NCBI RefSeq assembly: GCF_002943525.1
Contig: NZ_CP025394.1
Coordinates: 2,356,001 to 2,420,000, forward strand
Length of the DNA: 64,000 nucleotides
Direction of reading: 5' to 3'
DNA from: Kitasatospora sp. MMS16-BH015
Lineage (GTDB): Bacteria > Actinomycetota > Actinomycetes > Streptomycetales > Streptomycetaceae
Shown: positions 17,757 through 31,647 of the stretch, one piece after another
Numbering within the stretch: position 1 is the stretch's first letter
How the letters are laid out: each line of letters opens with the position of its first letter
The notes under the pieces: model-generated
What the model saw: the letters and a program-made list of their open reading frames with translations, nothing else
Told to the model about the DNA's origin: nothing
Databases searched by the model: none
Made by a program: the position numbers and the translations under genes

Positions 17757-17824
17757 GATGATTTCATCATTTTCCTGCCGTGGGGACCTTGACGAAGGAA
17801 AGTCTCACACTTGATGATTTCCTC
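17757..17824. promoter_or_regulatory. Twin operators of the ring-cleavage TetR
   Basis: GATGATTTCATC (17757-17768) is a perfect 12-bp palindrome. GATGATTTCCTC (17813-17824) repeats it with one change. The second copy begins 18 bp after a TTGACG -35-like hexamer (17789) and so lies where the -10 of the dioxygenase promoter would be. Confidence 0.65.
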
Positions 17825-21613: not shown

Positions 21614-22335
21614 CCAGGCCGGAGCCTTTCACGACGCCCGATCCGCAGGCCGTCGCGAGCAGCCGCATCGCGGGCAGGACCACTCCCCCAAGGCCGCCGC
21701 CGACCGCTTCGCCCAGCTCGAACCCACCGTCCTGATCGCCGCCGACGGCTACCACCACCGGCCTGCCCAAGGGCATCGTCCACGGCCACGGCGGCGTCCT
21801 GCTGGAGCACTTCAAGACCCTCGGCCTGCACTCCGACCTCGGCCCCGGCGACCGCCTGTCCTCGGTCCGCGTCGTCGGCTGCACCGGCTCGGCCCTGCCG
21901 GCCTCCGCCTACCCGTGGGTCCGCGACCACACGGCACCCGCTACCGCGACGCCTACTTCTCCACCCATCCTGGGGTGTGGCGCCACGGCGACTGGATCAC
22001 CCACACCTCCCACAGCTCGGTGATCGTCCACGGCCGCTCCGACAGCACCCTGAACCGCAACGGCGTACGCCTGGGCAGCGCGGACATCCACGACGCGGTC
22101 GAACGCCTCCCCGAGATCACCGAGGCCCTCGTCATCGGCGCGGAAGAGCTCGACGGCGGCTGCTGGATGCCGCTGTTCGTCGTCCCGGCACCAGGAGTGA
22201 CGCCGGACGACCCGCTCCGAGAAAAGCAGGGCGCCCCCGCCGAACAGGTCGTCAACCCGGCCGCCGTGGACGCCCCTGACCTCCTCGACCACTACGCCCG
22301 CCTGGGCGCCGAGCGCCGGAGCTCTCGCCACGGGC
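21610..22335 (+). pseudogene. Acetoacetate-CoA ligase with internal deletions
   Basis: It begins MTRPEPFTTPDPQAVASSRI, overlapping the hydroxylase stop as ATGA. Blocks typical of acetoacetyl-CoA synthetase follow in changing frames: KAAADRFAQLEPTVLIAADG; TGLPKGIVHGHGGVLLEHFK plus TLGLHSDLGPGDRL; RVVGCTGSALPASAYPWVRD; YRDAYFSTHPGVWRHGDWIT; and GRSDSTLNRNGVRLGSADIH up to LFVVPAPGVTPDD. The sequence then jumps to EQVVNPAAVDAPDLLDHYAR, the normal C-terminus. The whole is about 720 bp, against about 2 kb for an intact gene, so at least four blocks were deleted. It was probably once the fourth gene of the cassette. Confidence 0.85.
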
Positions 22336-22417
22336 GGCTGACGCGACTCACTTCGCCTCGACGAGGGTGATGACGAAGTGGTCGGCGGCCGCAGGGCCCA
22401 CCGGCGCCGGCTGTGGT

Positions 22418-22423
22418 TATAGT
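22418..22423 (+). promoter_or_regulatory. TATAGT -10 element for a leaderless response-regulator mRNA
   Basis: TATAGT ends seven bases before the GTG at 22431, the spacing expected if transcription starts at the start codon. No good -35 was seen. Confidence 0.45.
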
Positions 22424-22430
22424 GCCGCAG

Positions 22431-23117
22431 GTGCGAGTACTGGTGGTCGAGGACGATGCGGATCTGCGCTTCGCCGTGGTCGGGGCGCTGCGCGGTGCCG
22501 GGCTGGCCGTCGACGAGGCGGCGGACCTGCCGGTGGCGGACGAGGCGCTGTTCGTGACCGACTACGACTGCGTCGTGTTCGACCGGATGGTGCCGTCCGG
22601 GGACGCCCTGGACTACGTACGGAAGCTGCGCGGCGCCGGCGGTACGGCGCCGGTGCTCTTCCTCACGGCCCGCGACACCGTCACGGACCGGGTGGAGGGA
22701 TTCGCCTGCGGAGGCGACGACTACCTGGTCAAGCCGTTCGCCGTCCCGGAGCTGGTGGCCCGGGTCCACAGCCTGTGCCGACGGGCCGGCACCGTCCGCC
22801 CGCCCGTGCGGCACTTCGGCGACATCGAGATCGACACGGCCCGGCGCCAGGTCCGCCGGGGCGGCGTACGGCTGGTCCTGACCGTCAAGGAGTTCGCCGT
22901 CCTCGAAGTGCTGGCGGCCCGGGCGGACGAGGCGGTGCCCCGGTCCGAACTGATCGAGAAGTGCTGGGACGAGATGGCGGAGCCCAACTCGAACGTCGTC
23001 GAGGTGCTGGTGTCGCAGCTGCGCCGCAAGCTGGGCGACCCCTGCCCGATCCTCACCGTGCGCGGGCTCGGCTACCGGCTCGTGGCCGACGGGACCGGGC
23101 CCGGGGCCGGTCGGTGA
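22431..23117 (+). CDS. OmpR/PhoB-type response regulator
   Basis: 228 residues from the GTG at 22431 (MRVLVVEDDADLRFAVVGAL); the frame can be opened from 22413, but the promoter position favours the shorter form. The receiver domain has the acidic pair at 8-9, phosphoacceptor Asp51 in CVVFDRMVPSGDAL, Thr in LFLTARD and Lys101 in YLVKPFAVPEL. A winged-helix DNA-binding domain follows, with LTVKEFAVLEVLAARADEAV and VVEVLVSQLRRKLGD. The sensor kinase starts 11 bp later, so this is a cognate pair; target genes are unknown. Confidence 0.93.
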   Translation: MRVLVVEDDADLRFAVVGALRGAGLAVDEAADLPVADEALFVTDYDCVVFDRMVPSGDALDYVRKLRGAGGTAPVLFLTARDTVTDRVEGFACGGDDYLVKPFAVPELVARVHSLCRRAGTVRPPVRHFGDIEIDTARRQVRRGGVRLVLTVKEFAVLEVLAARADEAVPRSELIEKCWDEMAEPNSNVVEVLVSQLRRKLGDPCPILTVRGLGYRLVADGTGPGAGR

Positions 23118-23127
23118 GCCGGCTGGG

Positions 23128-24396
23128 ATGCTGACCGCCGAAGCCCGCATCCGCAGACTGCGGTGGCGCCTGACGGCGCTGTTCGCGCTGACCAGCGCCC
23201 TCGCCCTGGCCGGCCTGGCGGGGTTCGCGATCTACAGCGACAGCAACGCCCGGCGCGACCAGCTCGACGACAGGCTGCGGTTGCGGGGCACGGCGACTGC
23301 CAAGCTGATCGTCTACGACGACCAGGACAGGCTCGACATCCAGTCGCTGCTCGACATCGTGGGCACCGAATGCCCCCAGGTGACCATGGTCACCGTCACC
23401 TCCGACACGCCTGCCATCGCGTACGCGCCGCCCAAGCCCTGTATGCACGCCGCGGAGGCGGACGTCCGCCGGCTCGCCACCACGGCCGTCGCGCAGCACA
23501 GCGCGGTGTCCGCGGACGGCCACACCGCGGACGGCCGACCGGTGCGCCTGTTCGCCGCGCCTTTCGACGGACCGAGCGGAGAGAGCGCGGCCGGCGCGGT
23601 GGTGCTGGCCGCCGACGCCTCCGGCAGCCAGGCGCAGCACCAGCTGCGGCTCGTCCTGATCATCGGCAGCCTGGTGCTGGTGTCGGTGTCGGGCCTGGCG
23701 GGGCACCTGCTGTCCGGCCGTGCGATCCGGCCGGCGCTGACTTCGCTGCGGCAGCAGGAGGAGTTCCTCGCCGACGCCGCCCACGACCTGCGCACTCCGG
23801 CCGCCACCCTGCGTGCCCTGGCCGCGACCGCCCTGCACGAGCAGGCCGGGCATCCGCAGCCCGCCGCGCGGACCAGCGCACTGCAGCGCACCGAGCACCT
23901 GGCGGCCCGGATGGGCGACCTCATCGACGGCCTGCTCACCAGGGCCAGGCTCATGGCCGGTGTCGCCACACCCGTCCGGGAGCCGCTGCGCCTGGACCAG
24001 TTGGTCGAGGCGGTCGTCGAGGACACCGACACCCAAGGGCACCGGGTCACCGTCGTGACCGAGCGGGCCGTGGTCGTCGGCGATGTGGACCTGCTGCACC
24101 GGGCGGTGGCCAACCTACTGGGGAACGCGCTCGCCCACGGCCACGCCCCGGGCGTGCCCGCAGAGGTCCGTCTCGCCGTGACCGGCGACGGGACCGTCAC
24201 GGTCGACGACAGCGGCCCCGGCGTGCCGCCGGAGCTCGCCGGTTCGCTGTTCGAGCGCCACCGCAGCGGCTCGGGCTCCTCCGGGCTCGGCCTGTCGATC
24301 GCCTCCTGGGTCGCCCACGTCCACGGCGGCTCCCTGACCGTGGCCACCAGCCCCACGGGCGGCGCCCGTTTCGTCCTCCGGCTCGCCACCTCCTGA
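23128..24396 (+). CDS. Sensor histidine kinase
   Basis: 422 residues. TM1 is at about 15-36 and an extracytoplasmic domain of about 130 residues holds two cysteines (ECPQVTM and KPCMHAAE) that could form a disulphide. TM2 is at about 174-195. The H-box is EEFLADAAHDLRTPAATLRA with His219. The catalytic domain has VANLLGNALAHGHAP (N-box), DDSGPGVPPE and SGLGLSIASWVAHVHGG (G boxes). The stimulus is unknown. Paired with the response regulator immediately upstream. Confidence 0.92.
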   Translation: MLTAEARIRRLRWRLTALFALTSALALAGLAGFAIYSDSNARRDQLDDRLRLRGTATAKLIVYDDQDRLDIQSLLDIVGTECPQVTMVTVTSDTPAIAYAPPKPCMHAAEADVRRLATTAVAQHSAVSADGHTADGRPVRLFAAPFDGPSGESAAGAVVLAADASGSQAQHQLRLVLIIGSLVLVSVSGLAGHLLSGRAIRPALTSLRQQEEFLADAAHDLRTPAATLRALAATALHEQAGHPQPAARTSALQRTEHLAARMGDLIDGLLTRARLMAGVATPVREPLRLDQLVEAVVEDTDTQGHRVTVVTERAVVVGDVDLLHRAVANLLGNALAHGHAPGVPAEVRLAVTGDGTVTVDDSGPGVPPELAGSLFERHRSGSGSSGLGLSIASWVAHVHGGSLTVATSPTGGARFVLRLATS

Positions 24397-24567
24397 GACG
24401 CCGCGGGCGGGGCCGCCTCACCGAATCCTCAGGTTCCCCGGGGCAGACTTCCCCGAGGTTCCGGAACAGCACACAACGAGCGAGGGACGGTCACACCGGC
24501 GTCGGCGTCCTCCACGTTCTCCACCGCTGAGCCATCGGCTCTTGAAACAACGGGATGGGTTTGCGCC

Positions 24568-25560
24568 ATGGAACTGGAGTTCCGTCATCTGAGGATGATC
24601 CGGGCCATCGCAGACACCGAGAGCGTGACCAAAGCAGCGGATCGTCTGGGACTTGCCCAATCAGCGCTCTCCACCCAGCTGAAGAGGATCGAGGCCGCGG
24701 TCGGCGGGCGCCTCTTCGAGCGGGGCCGGAAAGGCGTTCAACCGACCCCGCTGGGCGTCCTGGTCCTGGAACGGAGCCGGGTGCTGCTGCCGGCGATGCG
24801 CCAACTCCAGGAGGACGCGCTGCGCTTCGCGAGCACGGTGGGCGAGAACGGCGCACTACGCCTGGGGGCGACGCCCGGCTCCTTCCTCGGCCCCTTGGTG
24901 GCAGGGCTCGATGCGGCACGGCCCGGCCTGGTGGCAAGCACCCGATCCTCGACCTCGGTCTCGGAGTTGGTGGATCGGATCGCGGGCGGGCGGCTGGATC
25001 TCGCGCTCACCGGGTGCTGCGGGCACGGGAAGGCGGTGGACGACGGACGCCTGGCCTGGCGGGAGATCGCCGTCGACCCGGTGTTCATCCTGCTCGCCGA
25101 GGGCCATCCGCTGGCGCGGGAGCGGGAGTTGCGGCTCGGGCAACTCGTGGACGAGCGCTGGGCGCTGCCGTCCGGGGAGAGCTGCTGCGGCGAATGCCTC
25201 GCCGCCGCCTGCGTGCGCGCGGGCTTCCTGCCCCGATCGGTCTACGAAACCGATGCCGCGTCATGCCTCCACCTCGTCCGATCACAGCGAGCCGCAGCCC
25301 TGTGCCGGGCGACCTTCCTTGCGCCGCCCGGGTTGGAACTGATCCCCCTGGCAGCCTCCGAGTTGAGCTGGCGCCACCTCCTCCTCTGGCATGCGCCCAC
25401 CCTGGCTCCCGGACTGACGGCCATGCTGCTCCGTCACGCCATGGCGGTGCACGCCGAAGCCGTGGCGCACAGCCCGGTGTACGCGGCCTGGCTGCGAGGA
25501 CAGGAGGACGTGACCGCGCGACCCGGAGGACACCGCACTCCCCCACCGCCGGAGCGATGA
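24568..25560 (+). CDS. LysR-family transcriptional regulator
   Basis: 330 residues. The N-terminal winged helix-turn-helix reads MELEFRHLRMIRAIADTESV, then AADRLGLAQSALSTQLKRIE. The effector domain includes SSTSVSELVDRIAGGRLDLA and a cysteine-rich SGESCCGECLAAACVRAGFL run with four cysteines in ten residues, which is unusual and might be redox-active or metal-binding. It points toward the NRPS-like gene 140 bp downstream of its stop (to the leader ORF), so control of that gene is possible but unproven. An upstream CGGGATGGG site is weak. Confidence 0.88.
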   Translation: MELEFRHLRMIRAIADTESVTKAADRLGLAQSALSTQLKRIEAAVGGRLFERGRKGVQPTPLGVLVLERSRVLLPAMRQLQEDALRFASTVGENGALRLGATPGSFLGPLVAGLDAARPGLVASTRSSTSVSELVDRIAGGRLDLALTGCCGHGKAVDDGRLAWREIAVDPVFILLAEGHPLARERELRLGQLVDERWALPSGESCCGECLAAACVRAGFLPRSVYETDAASCLHLVRSQRAAALCRATFLAPPGLELIPLAASELSWRHLLLWHAPTLAPGLTAMLLRHAMAVHAEAVAHSPVYAAWLRGQEDVTARPGGHRTPPPPER

Positions 25561-25700
25561 CCTCGCCGGGGCCGGACGCACCCTGTCCCCCGCGTTACGG
25601 CCACGTACATCACGTCGAAGCGGGAGTCTCTTGACATGTCCCCAACCATCCCTGCCCCGGGCTAGGGTTCCGGCATCCCCCACACCCCGAGGAGACCCCA

Positions 25701-25793
25701 ATGCTCCTACACCACATGGCAGTTGCCGCCCGCATGCGCCATGCGCGGCGGGCGCGGCCGGTGGGTGGCGCACGTCCTCGGCGGAGGCGCTGA
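25701..25793 (+). CDS. Candidate leader ORF, arginine-rich (30 residues)
   Basis: GAGGAG, seven bases before an ATG, opens MLLHHMAVAARMRHARRARP and ends in four arginines and a stop at 25793. It lies 80 bp before the NRPS-like start and is the only place in this leader with a strong ribosome-binding site. An Arg-rich short ORF ahead of a biosynthetic gene could be an attenuation leader sensing charged tRNA-Arg. It could also be a chance frame. Confidence 0.4.
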   Translation: MLLHHMAVAARMRHARRARPVGGARPRRRR

Positions 25794-25872: not shown

Positions 25873-28800
25873 ATGACGATCAACCCATCCGTCGCGGCGC
25901 ATCCTCTGCGACATCGGCTGCGGGAGTGGAACGCCGCCTGGAAACGCGGGGAGGTCATGGGAGAGCGGGTCGCGCGCGAGCTGCACTTCGGATCGCTGCT
26001 GGACCTGCTGCCCGCCGATCCCGGCGCGTGCGCCGTCGCGGCGCCGTCCGCGCGCGGGCGCAGCCCGCTGTCCTACCCGCGGCTGCACGAATTCCTGGGG
26101 GGCGCCGGGCCGTTCGACGACCTCGGGCTGACCCCGGGGGATCGGTGCGCGATCGCGATCCCCGAAGGCCCCGAACTCGCGGTGTGCCTGCTCGCGGTCG
26201 GCACGCGCTGCGCCGCCGTGCCGATGAACCCGTGGAACCCCGAAGGGGAGGTCGCCACGGACCTGGCCGAGACGGCGGCGAAGGCGCTGATCGTCCCGGT
26301 CGGCACGGACTTCGACCACCTGCGGCGCGCGGCGCGGACGGCCGGGGTGGAGGTCGTGGATCTGTGCCCCGACCCGTCGGCGGCCGGACTCTTCACCCTG
26401 GCGGTCGACGGCCGGGCCGCCGCCGCGGCCGGCCTGCCCGCCGCCCGGCAGGCCGGGCGGCGGATCAACGGTCCGGAGGACATCGCGCTGGAGCTGTTCA
26501 CCTCCGGCACCTCCGGCCGCAAGAAGCGGGTGCCGATCCGGCTGCGCGATCTGGTCGTCGGCGCGTCCTGCATCGCCGCCGCGCTGGAACTGGGCCCGGA
26601 GGACCGCGGGTTCAACATGATGCCGCTGTTCCACGCCGGCGGCATCGTGCGGAACCTGTTCGCCCCCTTGCTCGCGGGCAGCTCCATGGTCTACTCCGAC
26701 GGGTTCGACCCTGCGGCGTTCTGGGACGAACTCGTCGGCGGCGGGGGCTTCACCTGGTACTACGCCTCACCCACCATGCACGACGGCATCCTGCACGAGG
26801 GCCGGGCGCGGACGGCCACGGCCCGGCTGCGCTTCGTCTGCAACGCCGCCGGCGACCTGCTGCCCTCCACGGCCGCGCGGCTGCGCGAGCGCTTCCAGGC
26901 CGCCGTCCTGCCCGGCTACGGCATGACCGAGTGCATGCCGATCGCGATCCCGCCGCTGGACTACCGGCTGGAACGCCAGGGCGCGAGCGGTCTGGTCCTG
27001 GGCCCCCGGGTGCGGATCCTCGACGAGCGGGGGCACCAGGCCCCGACCGGTGTCGACGGCCGGATCATGATCAGCGGCGTCCCGCTCGCGCGCATCGTCC
27101 AGGACGAGCCCGGGCCGGGCGAACCGCCGGTCCCGGCGGGCTGGTTCGACACCGGCGACCTCGGCCGGTTCGACGAGGACGGGTACCTCTACGTGGTCGC
27201 CCGCGCCAAGGACGTCATCAAACGCGGCGGAGAGACGATCGCGCCGGCCGAGATCGAGGACGTCGTGGTGGCGCACCCGGACGTGCGCGCCGCGCTGGCC
27301 TTCGCGGTCCCGCACCCGGTGCTGGGGGAGGTGGCCGGCTGTGTGGTCGTGCCGCACGCCGACCGGCGGGTCGACCTGGACGGCCTGGCCCCGGTCCTGT
27401 CGGCGAAGCTGGCCCCGGCCAAGTGGCCGATGCTCCTGGTCTACATGGACGACCTGCCCAAGGGCCCGACCGGGAAGGTCCTGCGCCTGCGGCTCGCCGG
27501 CCGGCTCGGGATCGACCAGGTCGACGAACGGACACCCGCGCGCCGACGCCTCCACGAAGCCATCTGCCCGCCGGTCGGCGCCCCGCTCACCGACTCGATC
27601 CCGGCGGAGCCGGTGGTCATCGAGCCGGACGAGCTGGTCGCCGCGATCCGCTCGTCCTGGCCGGCCGCGACGGACGTGTACGTCAGCTGCGATCCGGGCT
27701 CCGGCGTACTGCGCGCCGCGGTCGAAACAGCCGGGGCGGTCGGCTGCCCCGGCACAGCCGTGCCCGACGGCGACGCCCTCCGGGAAGCACTGCGCAGCGT
27801 CGTCCACGACTACCTGCTGCCACGCGCGGTGACCGTGCTCGAAGCCTTCCCCCGGCTGGCCGACGGCGAGCCGGACCGCGAGCAGCTCCAGGCCCTGACC
27901 GCCAGCGACCACCGACCCGAGGCCGGGGCCGGCGACGAGATCGAGGCGCACCTGCTCGCACAGTGGCGGACGCACCTCGGCGCGGACCGGGAGATCGACC
28001 TCGACAGCGACTTCTTCGACGACCTGGGCGGGGCCTCGCTCACCGCCGTGCAGATCATCGCCGAGCTCCGCACGCACTACGGCATAGCGCTGCCGCCGAC
28101 CGCCGTCTTCCGCCACCGGAGTGTGCGGGCCCTGGCGGCACTGGTCCGAGCCGGGGTCGCGGACCTCGGGGCCGACACCGAAGACGCCGGCCGCCCGGCG
28201 GCGCCGCTGCCCGGCGGACCGGCGCCGAGGCCGCAGACGGCGGTGGCGGCGCTGCTCACCCAGCTGGTGCCGCTGGCGCTGCTGCCGGCGGCTCTGCAGC
28301 TGGGACAGTTCGCGGCCTGGATCACGTTCTGGTGGTACCTGCGCGGCGACCTCGGACTCAGCGGCCTGTGGGTGATGTTCGCGGCCCTCGGGGCCGCCGT
28401 CGCCACCCGCAAGGTGGTGGCCCCGATCGCGGCGATCGGCCTCAAATGGGCCCTGGTGGGTCGGTACTGCCGGGGTGTCGCGCCGCTGTGGGGCCAGGCC
28501 TACCTGCGCTGGTGGCTCGCGCACCAGGTCCAGACCACCGTCGGGTTGGGCGTGTTCGGGCTCTCCTACCCGCTGACCGCGCTGTACTACCGGCTGATGG
28601 GGGCCCGGGTCGGGCGCCGGACCCGGATCGCGGCGACCGCGGACCTCGGCGAGTTCGACCTGCTCACGATCGGCGACGACGCGGTCGTCGACGAGGGCGC
28701 GATCGTGCGCCCCTTCGGTTTCGAGGGCGGGGCCATGAGCCTGCGGCCGATCCGCCTGGGCGCCGGCTGCTCGATCGGCACCCGCTCCACGGTGGTCCCC

Positions 28801-30570
28801 GGTGCGGACCTCCCGGCCGGCACCGAGCTCGCGCCGCTGGGCACCTCGACGAACCCGCGCTCACTCGACCAGGGCACCCGGGTGCTGTCCCGCGCGCTGG
28901 TCTACTCCCCGCCGTCCTGGCTCAAGGGCCTGGGCACGCTCATCAAGGGCGCCGTGACGGCCGGGGCCTGGATGCCGATGATCCTGCTCATCCACGCGCT
29001 CATGTCCACCATGGTCACGCGCGGCATCCACCTGCACGGCCCGGCGGACCTGCTGGTGCAGATGATGTCCCTGCAGCGCCTCCTGCGGGCCGTCACCGTG
29101 CTGGCCGTCTCGACCGTGACCGCACCGTTCCTGTACCTGGCCGGCGTCATCCTCGTGAAGTGGACCGTGATCGGCCGCTTCCGGGCCGACGACGACATCA
29201 CCAAGGCGTGGCCGAAGTTCGAGCGCTGGCTGGTGTGGAGACTGCTCCCGGACGGCGGCCTCGGCGGCGCCGGCCGGATCCTCGGCGCGAACTTCGCGGC
29301 GATCAGCGTCGTCCTCCGGCTGCTCGGCGCCAAGGTCGGCAAGCGCATCTACTGGCCCGGCTCCGGCCACGTCATGACCGAGTACGACCTGTTCGAATGC
29401 GGCGACGACGTGACGTTCGGCTCCCGCTCGACCTACCTCATGACGGACGCGCACGGCTCGCGACCGATCCGGATCGAGGCGGGCGCCAACGTCGCCGACC
29501 GCTGCGTCCTGGCCCCCGGGGTGATCGTGGAGCGCAACGCCGTCCTCGGCTCCGGGACCTACGCCCCGACCGGGTTCACCGCCCCGGCCGGCTCCACCTG
29601 GATCGGCCAGGACGGCCGCCTGCAGCCGATCGAGCTCGAACCGGCGACGCCGCGCCGGGCCGAGGCCGACACGCTGCGCCCGTACGCCCAGGCCATGTAC
29701 CACCGCCAGGCCCCGTACCGGGTCTGGCCGCTGGCCGCCCACATCGGGTTCAACCTCGCCAACGCCGTCTGGGCCGCGCTGTACCGGGCGGCCCCGCTGA
29801 GCGGCGCGCTGCTGATCACCTGGGAGCTACTCCGGGTCTCCCACGGCAGCCCGCACAGCACCGCAGCCCTGCTGGCCCTGACGCTGCTGCTGTACATCCC
29901 GCTGCACCTGGTCGGCGCCCTCGGCGCCACGGCCGTCGTGGTGGCCACCAAGCGCCGGATCATCGGCGGCCTGCGGACCAGCGGCGAGCACTTCTGGACC
30001 CAGGACTCGTACTGCCAGCGCTGGAAGATCCACACCGTGATCTCCTCGCTGACGGGCAACTGGTTCGGCGGTCGCAACCTGCTGGACTTCCTCGGCGGCT
30101 CCGCCTACCTCGTCTGGTTCTTCCGCTACCTGGGAGCCCGGATCGGGCGCGGCGTGTGCCTGTACCCCAACGGCGCCGACCCGATGATGGAGGAGGCCGA
30201 CCTCACCACGATCGGCGACGGCGCCTGCATCGACCAGGCCGTCCTGATAGCCCACCTCAACACCCGCGGCGAGTGGACGATGGGCACGATCGAGATCGGC
30301 GCGGGCGCCTGCCTGCGGGCTCAGTCCCGGGTCATGATGATGGGCTCGGTCGCCGAGGGCGCCACCCTGCTCGAGGGCACGCTGCTGCTCGCGGGTGACG
30401 CGGCCCTGCCTTTCTCGGTCTGGGACGGGTGGCCCGGTCAGGCGATCGCCGGCGGCGCACTCGAGCACCGGGTGGGTACGGCCGGCACTGGCGTCAGCAC
30501 GGGCACTGGCACTGGCACTGGCACTGGCACCGTGGACGCGGAGATCGCGAGCGAGCACCACTTCGCTTGA
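25873..30570 (+). CDS. Pls/PosA-like membrane NRPS: A-(degenerate A_C)-T-[TM-LbH]x3
   Basis: 1,565 residues. The adenylation domain (about 30-560) has P-loop LFTSGTSGRKKRVP near 207, GYGMTECMPI near 348, WFDTGDLGRFDEDGYLY near 425, KRGGETIAPAEIED near 450 and catalytic Lys in LPKGPTGKVLRLRL near 535. About 590-680 looks like a second A C-subdomain ending FPRLADGEPDREQL, with no catalytic Lys. The carrier domain has DDLGGASLTAVQII (phosphopantetheine Ser near 721). Three membrane blocks (about 787-880, 1030-1100, 1284-1362) each precede a left-handed beta-helix acyltransferase-like domain (about 909, 1151, 1421 onward). This is the architecture of epsilon-poly-lysine synthetase, which is about 250 residues shorter. 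Product unknown; homopolymer synthesis is inference. The start has an AGAGG site. Confidence 0.85.
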   Translation: MTINPSVAAHPLRHRLREWNAAWKRGEVMGERVARELHFGSLLDLLPADPGACAVAAPSARGRSPLSYPRLHEFLGGAGPFDDLGLTPGDRCAIAIPEGPELAVCLLAVGTRCAAVPMNPWNPEGEVATDLAETAAKALIVPVGTDFDHLRRAARTAGVEVVDLCPDPSAAGLFTLAVDGRAAAAAGLPAARQAGRRINGPEDIALELFTSGTSGRKKRVPIRLRDLVVGASCIAAALELGPEDRGFNMMPLFHAGGIVRNLFAPLLAGSSMVYSDGFDPAAFWDELVGGGGFTWYYASPTMHDGILHEGRARTATARLRFVCNAAGDLLPSTAARLRERFQAAVLPGYGMTECMPIAIPPLDYRLERQGASGLVLGPRVRILDERGHQAPTGVDGRIMISGVPLARIVQDEPGPGEPPVPAGWFDTGDLGRFDEDGYLYVVARAKDVIKRGGETIAPAEIEDVVVAHPDVRAALAFAVPHPVLGEVAGCVVVPHADRRVDLDGLAPVLSAKLAPAKWPMLLVYMDDLPKGPTGKVLRLRLAGRLGIDQVDERTPARRRLHEAICPPVGAPLTDSIPAEPVVIEPDELVAAIRSSWPAATDVYVSCDPGSGVLRAAVETAGAVGCPGTAVPDGDALREALRSVVHDYLLPRAVTVLEAFPRLADGEPDREQLQALTASDHRPEAGAGDEIEAHLLAQWRTHLGADREIDLDSDFFDDLGGASLTAVQIIAELRTHYGIALPPTAVFRHRSVRALAALVRAGVADLGADTEDAGRPAAPLPGGPAPRPQTAVAALLTQLVPLALLPAALQLGQFAAWITFWWYLRGDLGLSGLWVMFAALGAAVATRKVVAPIAAIGLKWALVGRYCRGVAPLWGQAYLRWWLAHQVQTTVGLGVFGLSYPLTALYYRLMGARVGRRTRIAATADLGEFDLLTIGDDAVVDEGAIVRPFGFEGGAMSLRPIRLGAGCSIGTRSTVVPGADLPAGTELAPLGTSTNPRSLDQGTRVLSRALVYSPPSWLKGLGTLIKGAVTAGAWMPMILLIHALMSTMVTRGIHLHGPADLLVQMMSLQRLLRAVTVLAVSTVTAPFLYLAGVILVKWTVIGRFRADDDITKAWPKFERWLVWRLLPDGGLGGAGRILGANFAAISVVLRLLGAKVGKRIYWPGSGHVMTEYDLFECGDDVTFGSRSTYLMTDAHGSRPIRIEAGANVADRCVLAPGVIVERNAVLGSGTYAPTGFTAPAGSTWIGQDGRLQPIELEPATPRRAEADTLRPYAQAMYHRQAPYRVWPLAAHIGFNLANAVWAALYRAAPLSGALLITWELLRVSHGSPHSTAALLALTLLLYIPLHLVGALGATAVVVATKRRIIGGLRTSGEHFWTQDSYCQRWKIHTVISSLTGNWFGGRNLLDFLGGSAYLVWFFRYLGARIGRGVCLYPNGADPMMEEADLTTIGDGACIDQAVLIAHLNTRGEWTMGTIEIGAGACLRAQSRVMMMGSVAEGATLLEGTLLLAGDAALPFSVWDGWPGQAIAGGALEHRVGTAGTGVSTGTGTGTGTGTVDAEIASEHHFA
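30502..30530 (+). repeat. Hexanucleotide tandem repeat (GGCACT), in frame
   Basis: About 4.8 copies of GGCACT near the 3' end of the NRPS-like gene encode a TGTGTGTGTG tail. Changes of copy number would keep the frame, so only the length of a flexible tail would vary. Confidence 0.8.
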
Positions 30571-30572
30571 TG

Positions 30573-30618
30573 CCCGCTCATCCCGGGACAGGACTCACCC
30601 TGTCCCGGGATGAGCGGG
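30573..30618. terminator. Perfect 20-bp stem hairpin
   Basis: CCCGCTCATCCCGGGACAGG pairs exactly with 30599-30618 around a six-base loop, starting two bases after the NRPS-like stop codon. No U-tract follows. It is a strong intrinsic-type terminator for actinobacteria. Confidence 0.85.
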
Positions 30619-30821
30619 AGGAGGGGCGCGGGGTCGACAGGAAGGGACCACCCCTGGCGACAGCGGCGATGGTCAGGGCGGCGGTCAGGAAGAAGCCACC
30701 CCCGCCGACGACGGCGATGGCCCTGCCACCCCCGAGCCCATGCCCACGCCGGCGGTCGACCAGTCCACCGAGGCGGCCCCGCTGCCAGTTCGACCGGGCC
30801 GGTTGCCGGCGAACTGGCACA

Positions 30822-31200
30822 CACCGGTGCCGGCTCCGCCACCGAGCACACCGCCGTCCTGAGCGAGCTGGTCGACGGGCTCCGGCTCGACGAGTTCCTC
30901 CTGACGGATCAGGACTGGGGCGGCCCGATCGGGCTCGGCGCGGCGGTGTCGCGGGCGGATCGCGTGGGCGGATCGCGTCCGGGGGATCGTGCTGGGCAAC
31001 ACCGCGTTCTGGCCCGTCGAACCGCCGGCGGACCGGGCGTTCGGCCTGGTCATGAGCAGCCGCCCCGCTCAGCGCCGCATCCCAGAGGAGAACCTCCTCG
31101 TGGAACGGTTCCTGCTCGGCAGGTCCGGTCCCGACCTGACCGCGGCCGAGGCCGACCACTACCGCCTAGTCCAACCCACGGCAGAGGCCCGCTGCGGCCT
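30822..31200 (+). pseudogene. Alpha/beta hydrolase (haloalkane-dehalogenase-like) broken by a 13-bp duplication
   Basis: Frame one gives TEHTAVLSELVDGLRLDEFL, then LTDQDWGGPIGLGAAVSRAD. QDWGGPIG is the nucleophile elbow (Asp type) of haloalkane-dehalogenase-like hydrolases. After a 13-bp tandem duplication at 30953-30978 the frame shifts to VLGNTAFWPVEPPADRAFGL, then SSRPAQRRIPEENLLVERFL and GPDLTAAEADHYRLVQPTAE. The N-terminus and the C-terminal histidine region are missing. Neighbouring DNA to 31640 also looks decayed. Confidence 0.8.
30953..30978. repeat. 13-bp tandem duplication causing a frameshift
   Basis: GGGCGGATCGCGT is present twice head to tail (30953-30965 and 30966-30978) inside the hydrolase pseudogene. 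Removing one copy restores ADRVRGIVLGNTAF in frame. Confidence 0.85.
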
Positions 31201-31647
31201 CGCGGTCGCACCTCGCGCCGCTCCGTGCTTGCCGAGGCCCCCCACCTACCCCTGCACCGCCTCGTCACCGCCCTCGCCGAAGCCGAGCACCGGGGCGAGA
31301 GCCACCCTGCACAAGGGTCCGGGCCCCGCCGCCTCGCTGCTCGCCGACCGGATCACCGCCGCCGGCCTGTTCGCCCGGGTCCGCGCACTCCGCCGCCCGG
31401 CCGACCGTCTGACCGCTCACCGAGCACCGAGCACCAGCGCCCGCATCCCGGCTCTCGTGAGGAACCCGCCACATGAGTGCGTCTACCCCCGCCCCTCGTA
31501 CGCTCGCCGCCCGCTGACGAGGAGCTGCTCCGGGCCGCCCTCGAAGACACCTCCTGGGGCGGCTGTGTGCCGAGCCGAGCCACACCGACACCCCGCTGCT
31601 GACCGTGCTCGGCCTGCGGCACAAGAGCCCACCCGGGCAGCTGAAGC
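31201..31647. other. Decayed region, no intact gene
   Basis: Open plus-strand frames run through here but none keeps recognisable homology. A short frame from an ATG at 31472 (MSASTPAPRTLAARR) ends at once. A run reading EELLRAALEDTSWGG follows, then LLTVLGLRHKS in another frame, which suggests a further unrecognised pseudogene. Confidence 0.45.

Follow-up and report, generated by a model that had tools for sequence, protein, structure and literature searches.

A Pls-like membrane synthetase of Kitasatospora with an acyl-CoA-ligase-type activation domain and a second adenylation subdomain that lacks the catalytic lysine

A gene of Kitasatospora sp. MMS16-BH015 raises the question of how a membrane synthetase comes to carry two consecutive C-terminal subdomains (Asub) of an adenylation (A) domain, the second without the catalytic lysine, and of what such an enzyme would activate. 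The gene occupies 25873–30570 of the window, the 64,000-nucleotide stretch of contig NZ_CP025394.1 analysed here, and encodes 1565 residues (P0001) in an unbroken frame, with its ATG at 25873 and a stop codon that ends at 30570; its GC content at third codon positions is 0.94. All features of the gene given below lie on the plus strand. Along the protein, an acyl-CoA-ligase-type core (Acore1) with its own subdomain (Asub1) is followed by an NRPS-type subdomain without the catalytic lysine (Asub2), a carrier (T) and a Pls-like C-terminal domain with a threefold repeat. Structure prediction gave two models with mean pLDDT values of 36.7 and 34.2, which are too low to use. Near the C-terminus, a GGCACT hexamer repeat (30502–30531) encodes a Gly-Thr run that does not occur in the three Novosphingobium relatives, and an inverted repeat with perfect 20-bp arms and a loop of 6 bases, located by repeat search right after the stop codon (30573–30618, plus strand), may act as a terminator.

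Two consecutive subdomains

The N-terminus and Acore1 span residues 1–456 (25873–27240), with the Pfam AMP-binding match (PF00501) at 83–406, and Asub1 spans residues 457–548 (27241–27516), with AMP-binding_C (PF13193) at 460–535. The A domain had been predicted to keep its catalytic lysine, and Asub1 indeed retains it as K535, T533, G534 and K535 being invariant in 4/4 sequences, those of Kitasatospora and of the three Novosphingobium loci (L045–L047). A linker of residues 549–580 (27517–27612) leads to Asub2 at approximately residues 581–676 (27613–27900), in which, by alignment and profile, the position of the A10 lysine is held by Glu666 (codon 27868–27870).

The original prediction took this second stretch for a catalytically dead Asub and proposed PF13193 as the check. 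That model has no match at residues 590–680, nor in residues 510–776 searched alone at E up to 1, so the Pfam family is negative as a test; it is overruled by dedicated Asub profiles, with which the claim of a dead second Asub holds. A profile of 21 Asubs, 14 of them from loci picked by resemblance to an Asub2-carrier query, six from Pls proteins and one from an AMP-binding match in the own genome, scores Asub2 at 35.3 bits in Kitasatospora and at 28.1–32.7 bits in the three relatives, and the best of 2000 shuffled sequences reaches 11.6 bits; the hhalign probability is 97.7. An alternative profile of 20 Asubs omits the 14 query-like loci and consists of eight own-genome AMP-binding matches, not all of which are surely NRPS, and 12 Pls Asubs, some of them also in the set of 21. 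It places the four real Asub2 sequences at 20.9–27.3 bits, above all 2000 shuffles (best 7.4), with an hhalign probability of 97.4. When 146 windows are slid along the synthetase, two peaks emerge, one at Asub2 (35.8 bits, from residue 571) and one at Asub1 (29.1 bits, from residue 441), and the best score outside the windows starting at 361–651 is 3.7 bits. Searched as a single sequence, Asub2 matches solved structures weakly, with a best whole-sequence E of 5.8e-05, to LgrA, over query residues 70–117 only. Judged by the profile scores, the stretch 581–676 is a real second Asub of NRPS type, beyond what chance would give.

The A10 region of Asub2 reads GEPDREQL in Kitasatospora, GEIDTDQL in L046 and L047 and GAVDTDQL in L045; the A10 lysine is thus absent in 4/4, replaced by glutamate in the first three and by alanine in L045. 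The profile match begins after A8 in three of the four sequences and at the last A8 residues in L045, and no A8 hinge motif is found. The LPxP motif, which the accessible part of PMC8097286 describes as the anchor of the linker between A and T in a normal module, is missing behind the A10 of Asub2 in 4/4, which makes ordinary docking between this Asub and the carrier doubtful.

Two local origins of Asub2 can be weighed at this point. Since Asub1 and Asub2 adjoin in one protein, the second might be a duplicate of the first. The two have no detectable similarity (hhalign probability 0.11; BLASTP E 17), whereas Asub2 matches the Asub profile at 97.7, and this dissimilarity contradicts a duplication of Asub1 so clearly that it is barely conceivable. 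The word tandem in the original prediction might be read as a duplication, which this lack of similarity does not bear out. Alternatively, Asub2 might be what is left of a second, formerly complete A domain in a two-module ancestor, whose core has decayed. Asub2 begins behind the A8 hinge or with its last residues and stops at A10, boundaries that fit a truncated A domain, but the linker of ~32 residues between Asub1 and Asub2 is too short for the remnant of a core, and no two-module ancestor is seen in the searches for relatives; such a history appears improbable.

The Pls-like part and the origin of Asub2

Pls and PosA are the synthetases of epsilon-poly-lysine and delta-poly-ornithine, and their product is a cationic isopeptide homopolymer. 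In these enzymes an A domain and a carrier precede a large C-terminal domain with a threefold repeat, and the Kitasatospora synthetase shares this order. Its carrier, residues 691–760 (27943–28152), matches PP-binding (PF00550) at 694–758 with E 2e-14 and has its serine, Ser722, in the motif LGGAS; this serine is invariant in 15/15 sequences. The C-terminal domain is composed of blocks C1 (residues 793–1010, 28249–28902), C2 (1011–1265, 28903–29667) and C3 (1266–1525, 29668–30447). The threefold repeat reads EFDLLTIGDD at residue 927, EYDLFECGDD at residue 1170 (C2, at 29380) and EADLTTIGDG at residue 1441 (C3, at 30193); the three copies belong to a repeat family, D1, of six copies, and mark the beta-helix blocks. 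Pfam detects the hexapeptide in two weak matches, both under cut-off, one of them at 1199–1229 in C2. A carrier followed by three membrane-plus-hexapeptide blocks had been predicted; the carrier and the threefold repeat are found, and the six transmembrane helices, arranged as three pairs in the Pls/PosA plan, are left unconfirmed, simple hydropathy giving four strong peaks in the C-terminal domain.

The relation to Pls is clear in plan and distant in sequence. The NCBIfam model for Pls/PosA, TIGR02353, collects 156.9 bits in three stretches, the best at residues 806–1124, and does not reach its curated cut-off of 423.1. The C-terminal domain is 22–28% identical to those of 11 canonical Pls proteins, which are themselves 28–94% identical to four reference Pls proteins among the matches listed. 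In a 15-sequence comparison, for which the incomplete L085 was dropped from the 12 Pls regions, 46 columns (carrier included) are invariant in 15/15, His1461 in C3 among them, and 58 columns that are invariant in the 11 canonical Pls differ in the synthetase, eight of them as gaps (carrier likewise included). In one Pls alignment the motif used to cut the regions matched in just 4/11 Pls proteins. The Pls-like C-terminal domain and the carrier uphold the Pls-type plan of the original prediction, and the low TIGR02353 score and the low identity make Pls-type a loose label. The same Kitasatospora genome encodes a separate canonical Pls at locus L074 (G000:C1:886000-893500), which scores 784 bits against TIGR02353.

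A profile of the whole synthetase, A domain included in the score, matches all 12 Pls loci, 11 of them at E 4.5e-82 to 1.8e-36 and the twelfth, the Pls of the own genome, at 2.6e-31. In three of the 12 (L075, L082, L083) the match runs unbroken through Asub, carrier and C1, from residues 576–577 to residues 984–986, implying that Asub2 stands at the place of the Pls enzymes' own Asub. The match starts at residues 621–638, inside Asub2, in eight other loci, and at residue 684, behind Asub2, in L085.

The reading favoured here, to which a probability of roughly 0.6 is given, is that the synthetase is a divergent Pls-like membrane enzyme in which the unit for amino-acid activation has been replaced by an acyl-ligase A domain and Asub2 persists as a non-catalytic spacer. 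Most simply, a protein that already had Asub, T and the membrane part would have acquired a complete ligase domain in front of them; the activating role would have passed to this domain, and the old Asub would then have lost its lysine. In the enzyme of today, Acore1 and Asub1 would adenylate a carboxylic acid without an alpha-amine and load it onto Ser722 of the carrier, which a phosphopantetheinyl transferase would have converted to the holo form; such a gene adjoins the synthetase in Novosphingobium. Asub2, as a folded spacer or a putative docking face, may preserve the ancestral connection of Asub, carrier and C1 after the exchange of the core. The C-terminal domain would then transfer the acyl group in the membrane, either to a further copy of the substrate, giving a polymer, or to another acceptor.

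Natural exchanges in NRPS offer a partial precedent. In the accessible part of PMC8097286, recombination maps place the exchange within Acore and the Asub-T interface is retained, much as the core would have changed and the Asub-T junction been kept in the synthetase. The difference is that the kept Asub of those exchanges, as far as that part of the source describes them, serves the new core, whereas here the incoming core would have arrived with an Asub of its own, and the retained one lacks the lysine.

A competing history derives Asub2 and the carrier from the last part of a general NRPS module, inserted as one cassette between the ligase and the Pls-like C-terminal domain in a three-way fusion. 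Kitasatospora Asub2 does score better with a profile of general NRPS Asubs than with one of Pls Asubs (34.5 vs 20.6 bits; in L045 30.5 vs 26.2 bits), but the comparison is biased toward the query, the NRPS set having been picked mostly by resemblance to it. The best carrier match also lies in an NRPS locus (140, against 125 for Pls carriers and 89 for those of the ligase-carrier loci of the genus described below; for the Kitasatospora carrier alone 120, 118 and 89, among the matches listed). In addition, many of the listed matches of the Asub2-carrier query fall in open frames that run to several thousand residues, as those of multimodular NRPS do. The collinearity of this part with the Asub-T-C1 of Pls, which requires no additional fusion, speaks against a cassette, and overall the three-way fusion is rather unlikely. 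The takeover of a Pls-like ancestor by a ligase is preferred, with one reservation as to Asub2 itself: since it is not nearer to the Pls Asubs, and the Asub tree, with a support of 0.18, does not separate a Pls from an NRPS placement, it is position and not similarity that argues for its being the ancestor's native Asub.

The rates at which the domains change fit a retained but non-catalytic part. Per-domain identities were calculated between Kitasatospora and L045 or L046 (L047 was left out), and are 71% for Acore, 70–73% for Asub1, 66% for T and 64–70% for C1–C3; Asub2 is 41–47% identical, as against 64–73% in the other domains. Between L045 and L046, Asub2 has a dN/dS of 0.16, a rough value at a dS of 1.0, which indicates purifying selection inside Novosphingobium; the corresponding values are 0.16 for T, 0.22 for Acore, 0.22 for C1, 0.11 for Asub1 and 0.17, 0.51 and 0.73 for the linkers. 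Under purifying selection and with its lysine lost in 4/4, Asub2 appears to be kept for something other than the catalytic residue, and its quicker drift between Kitasatospora and L045 or L046 is as would be expected of a scaffold.

Activation domain and likely substrate

The A domain had been thought closer to acyl- or aryl-CoA ligases than to a lysine activator, and two comparisons agree. Among the best 25 of 107 NCBIfam families, acyl-CoA ligases rank at the top, led by the FadD7 type with 255 bits, under its cut-off of 650, and the nearest solved structures are oxalyl-CoA synthetases (6qjz, E 5e-70; 5ie0, E 1.5e-65; 8aff, E 2.9e-52). The oxalyl-CoA synthetases AAE3 and Pcs60 are likewise complete ligases with both subdomains and the catalytic lysine; they are free-standing CoA ligases, whereas the A domain of the synthetase is fused to a carrier and a membrane domain. 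Oxalate itself is unsupported as the substrate. Of three oxalate contacts of AAE3, His214, Ser289 and His319, the first alone is kept (as His254) in the alignment with the solved structures, and the other two have become Ala326 and Pro356.

In A domains for alpha-amino acids, an Asp of A4 holds the alpha-amine of the substrate, as stated in the accessible part of PMC10522769. The corresponding stretch of the synthetase, by our placement of A4, is D244–D276 (FNMMPLFHAGGIVRNLFAPLLAGSSMVYS, around PLFH), and between these two residues neither Asp nor Glu occurs in 4/4. A profile alignment of Acore1 with Pls cores, with L081 and L085 left out, has a probability of 99.9 at 23% identity and leaves the Pls A4 motif itself unaligned, so that the absence of the Asp seen in Pls and PosA is read from the local sequence. 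A segment without an acidic residue makes an alpha-amino acid unlikely, and we infer as the substrate a carboxylic acid that carries no alpha-amine; oxalate is probably not the one.

These features bear on the view that the synthetase is an ordinary enzyme for a cationic homopolymer, poly-lysine or poly-ornithine, with a merely diverged A domain. Its Pls-like C-terminal domain would suit such a role, but Pls and PosA have an amino-acid A domain where the synthetase has an acyl-CoA-ligase-type domain whose A4 stretch is free of acidic residues and which is followed by an extra dead Asub. The TIGR02353 score far under cut-off and the 58 differing columns, eight of them gaps, also speak against an ordinary homopolymer enzyme, which is very improbable.

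The nearest relatives of the A domain within the genus occur at L093–L096, in 4/89 other genomes, with 39–40% identity. A ligase-carrier didomain is established in three of the four (L093–L095), with an A domain of the same type and a carrier directly behind it; these didomains differ from the synthetase in having neither a second Asub nor a membrane domain. Carriers at these loci match that of the synthetase less well than Pls or NRPS carriers do, in line with the favoured reading. L093 and L095 adjoin genes whose translations read as dapB-like and phosphopantetheinyl-transferase-like.

Distribution, gene gain and possible product

Relatives were sought with short peptide patterns in one genome per species across 84,980 species, a method that misses distant relatives. 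The scan returned eight stretches, four of which encode a relative, three full-length and one partial and distant at 26%. The full-length proteins belong to Novosphingobium olei, N. percolationis and N. sp. KCTC 2891 and are 65–66% identical over the whole length, so that within the searches made the layout with the dead Asub2 is found in four genomes from two phyla. Samples that overlap one another, queried with the C-terminal domain, yielded only the own genome in the phylum (1/396 at E up to 1e-20) and in the order (1/293 at 1e-40), and only genome G298 in the class of G298 (1/385 at 1e-40). At 1e-15, 7/70 genomes of the genus and 8/298 of the G298 family match, and the full-length matches are those of the own genome and G298 only. 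Loci fetched around the 1e-15 matches, from 11 of the 13 other genomes and with the own-genome Pls added, make up the 12 Pls loci, near-complete proteins of Pls layout being present in 11; of the seven partial-match genomes in the G298 family, G889 and G914 were not fetched whole. In the plasmid collection, none of 2685 matching records covers 80% of the query. Among the relatives searched, there is no intermediate that combines an exchanged core with a live second Asub.

The three Novosphingobium loci share one arrangement, in which two-component genes and a gene for a protein of 880–898 residues precede the synthetase and a phosphopantetheinyl transferase gene follows. The transferase is identified by Pfam ACPS in L046, its L045 counterpart is 62% identical, and that of L047 is read from the translation. 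The 880–898-residue proteins of L045 and L046 are 75% identical, with a counterpart in L047; the 880-residue protein of L046 (7275–9917) has the look of an outer-membrane protein on reading and no Pfam match. Two-component genes (22413–24396) and a LysR gene (24568–25560) lie upstream of the Kitasatospora synthetase as well. The two-component genes match those of Novosphingobium at 33% and 35%, which is taken as ordinary for such families and not as a sign of shared regulation.

The LysR gene has close orthologues in 2/69 other genomes of the genus (74% and 71%) and another at 57%, and in none of these 69 genomes is the C-terminal domain matched over its full length. In genome G096 (locus L098) the LysR gene is followed by a gene with an alpha-lytic-protease prodomain. 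Window DNA at 24555–25730 matches this locus at 76.6% by blastn and local alignment and then the match ends. What remains of the protease gene, at 25623–25730 (plus strand), is its upstream region and its initial ten codons, and the rest is absent; with G203 the similarity extends no further than 25583, just past LysR. The synthetase appears to occupy the place of a G096-type protease gene in Kitasatospora, as expected of a horizontal gain, and the 65% identity across phyla together with the very narrow spread makes horizontal transfer its likely history.

At 30610–31476, the translations of overlapping frames resemble, in pieces and with shifts of frame, a hydrolase of the haloalkane-dehalogenase type; there is no Pfam match, and this is perhaps a broken gene. 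A short frame at 21915–22370, also without a Pfam match, looks by its translation like the last part of an acyl-CoA synthetase and may be a truncated gene, and at 17811–21613 genes of glyoxalase-family, fumarylacetoacetate-hydrolase and FAD-binding monooxygenase type stand in a row, perhaps a set for aromatic breakdown.

The Pls-type polymer synthetases covered in the accessible part of PMC10522769 are all presented as having an amino-acid A domain that supplies a cationic polymer. The layout of the synthetase was not recognised in searches of the open-access literature, a scope outside which most subscription papers lie. A new product, as the original prediction allowed, is plausible from the domain architecture. 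It is possible, though doubtful at present, that the synthetase is the first membrane polymerase of the Pls type to use a substrate that lacks an alpha-amine, a natural chimera with a dead Asub that keeps the carrier positioned for a foreign ligase. If so, its product might be, for example, a polyester built from a hydroxy acid or a polyamide built from an omega-amino acid. A natural member of the Pls family whose A domain is of ligase type would demonstrate a membrane domain able to take other acyl groups. The retained dead Asub would be a natural experiment on a question that also concerns engineering, namely whether the connection of Asub, carrier and membrane domain must persist when the activation domain is exchanged.
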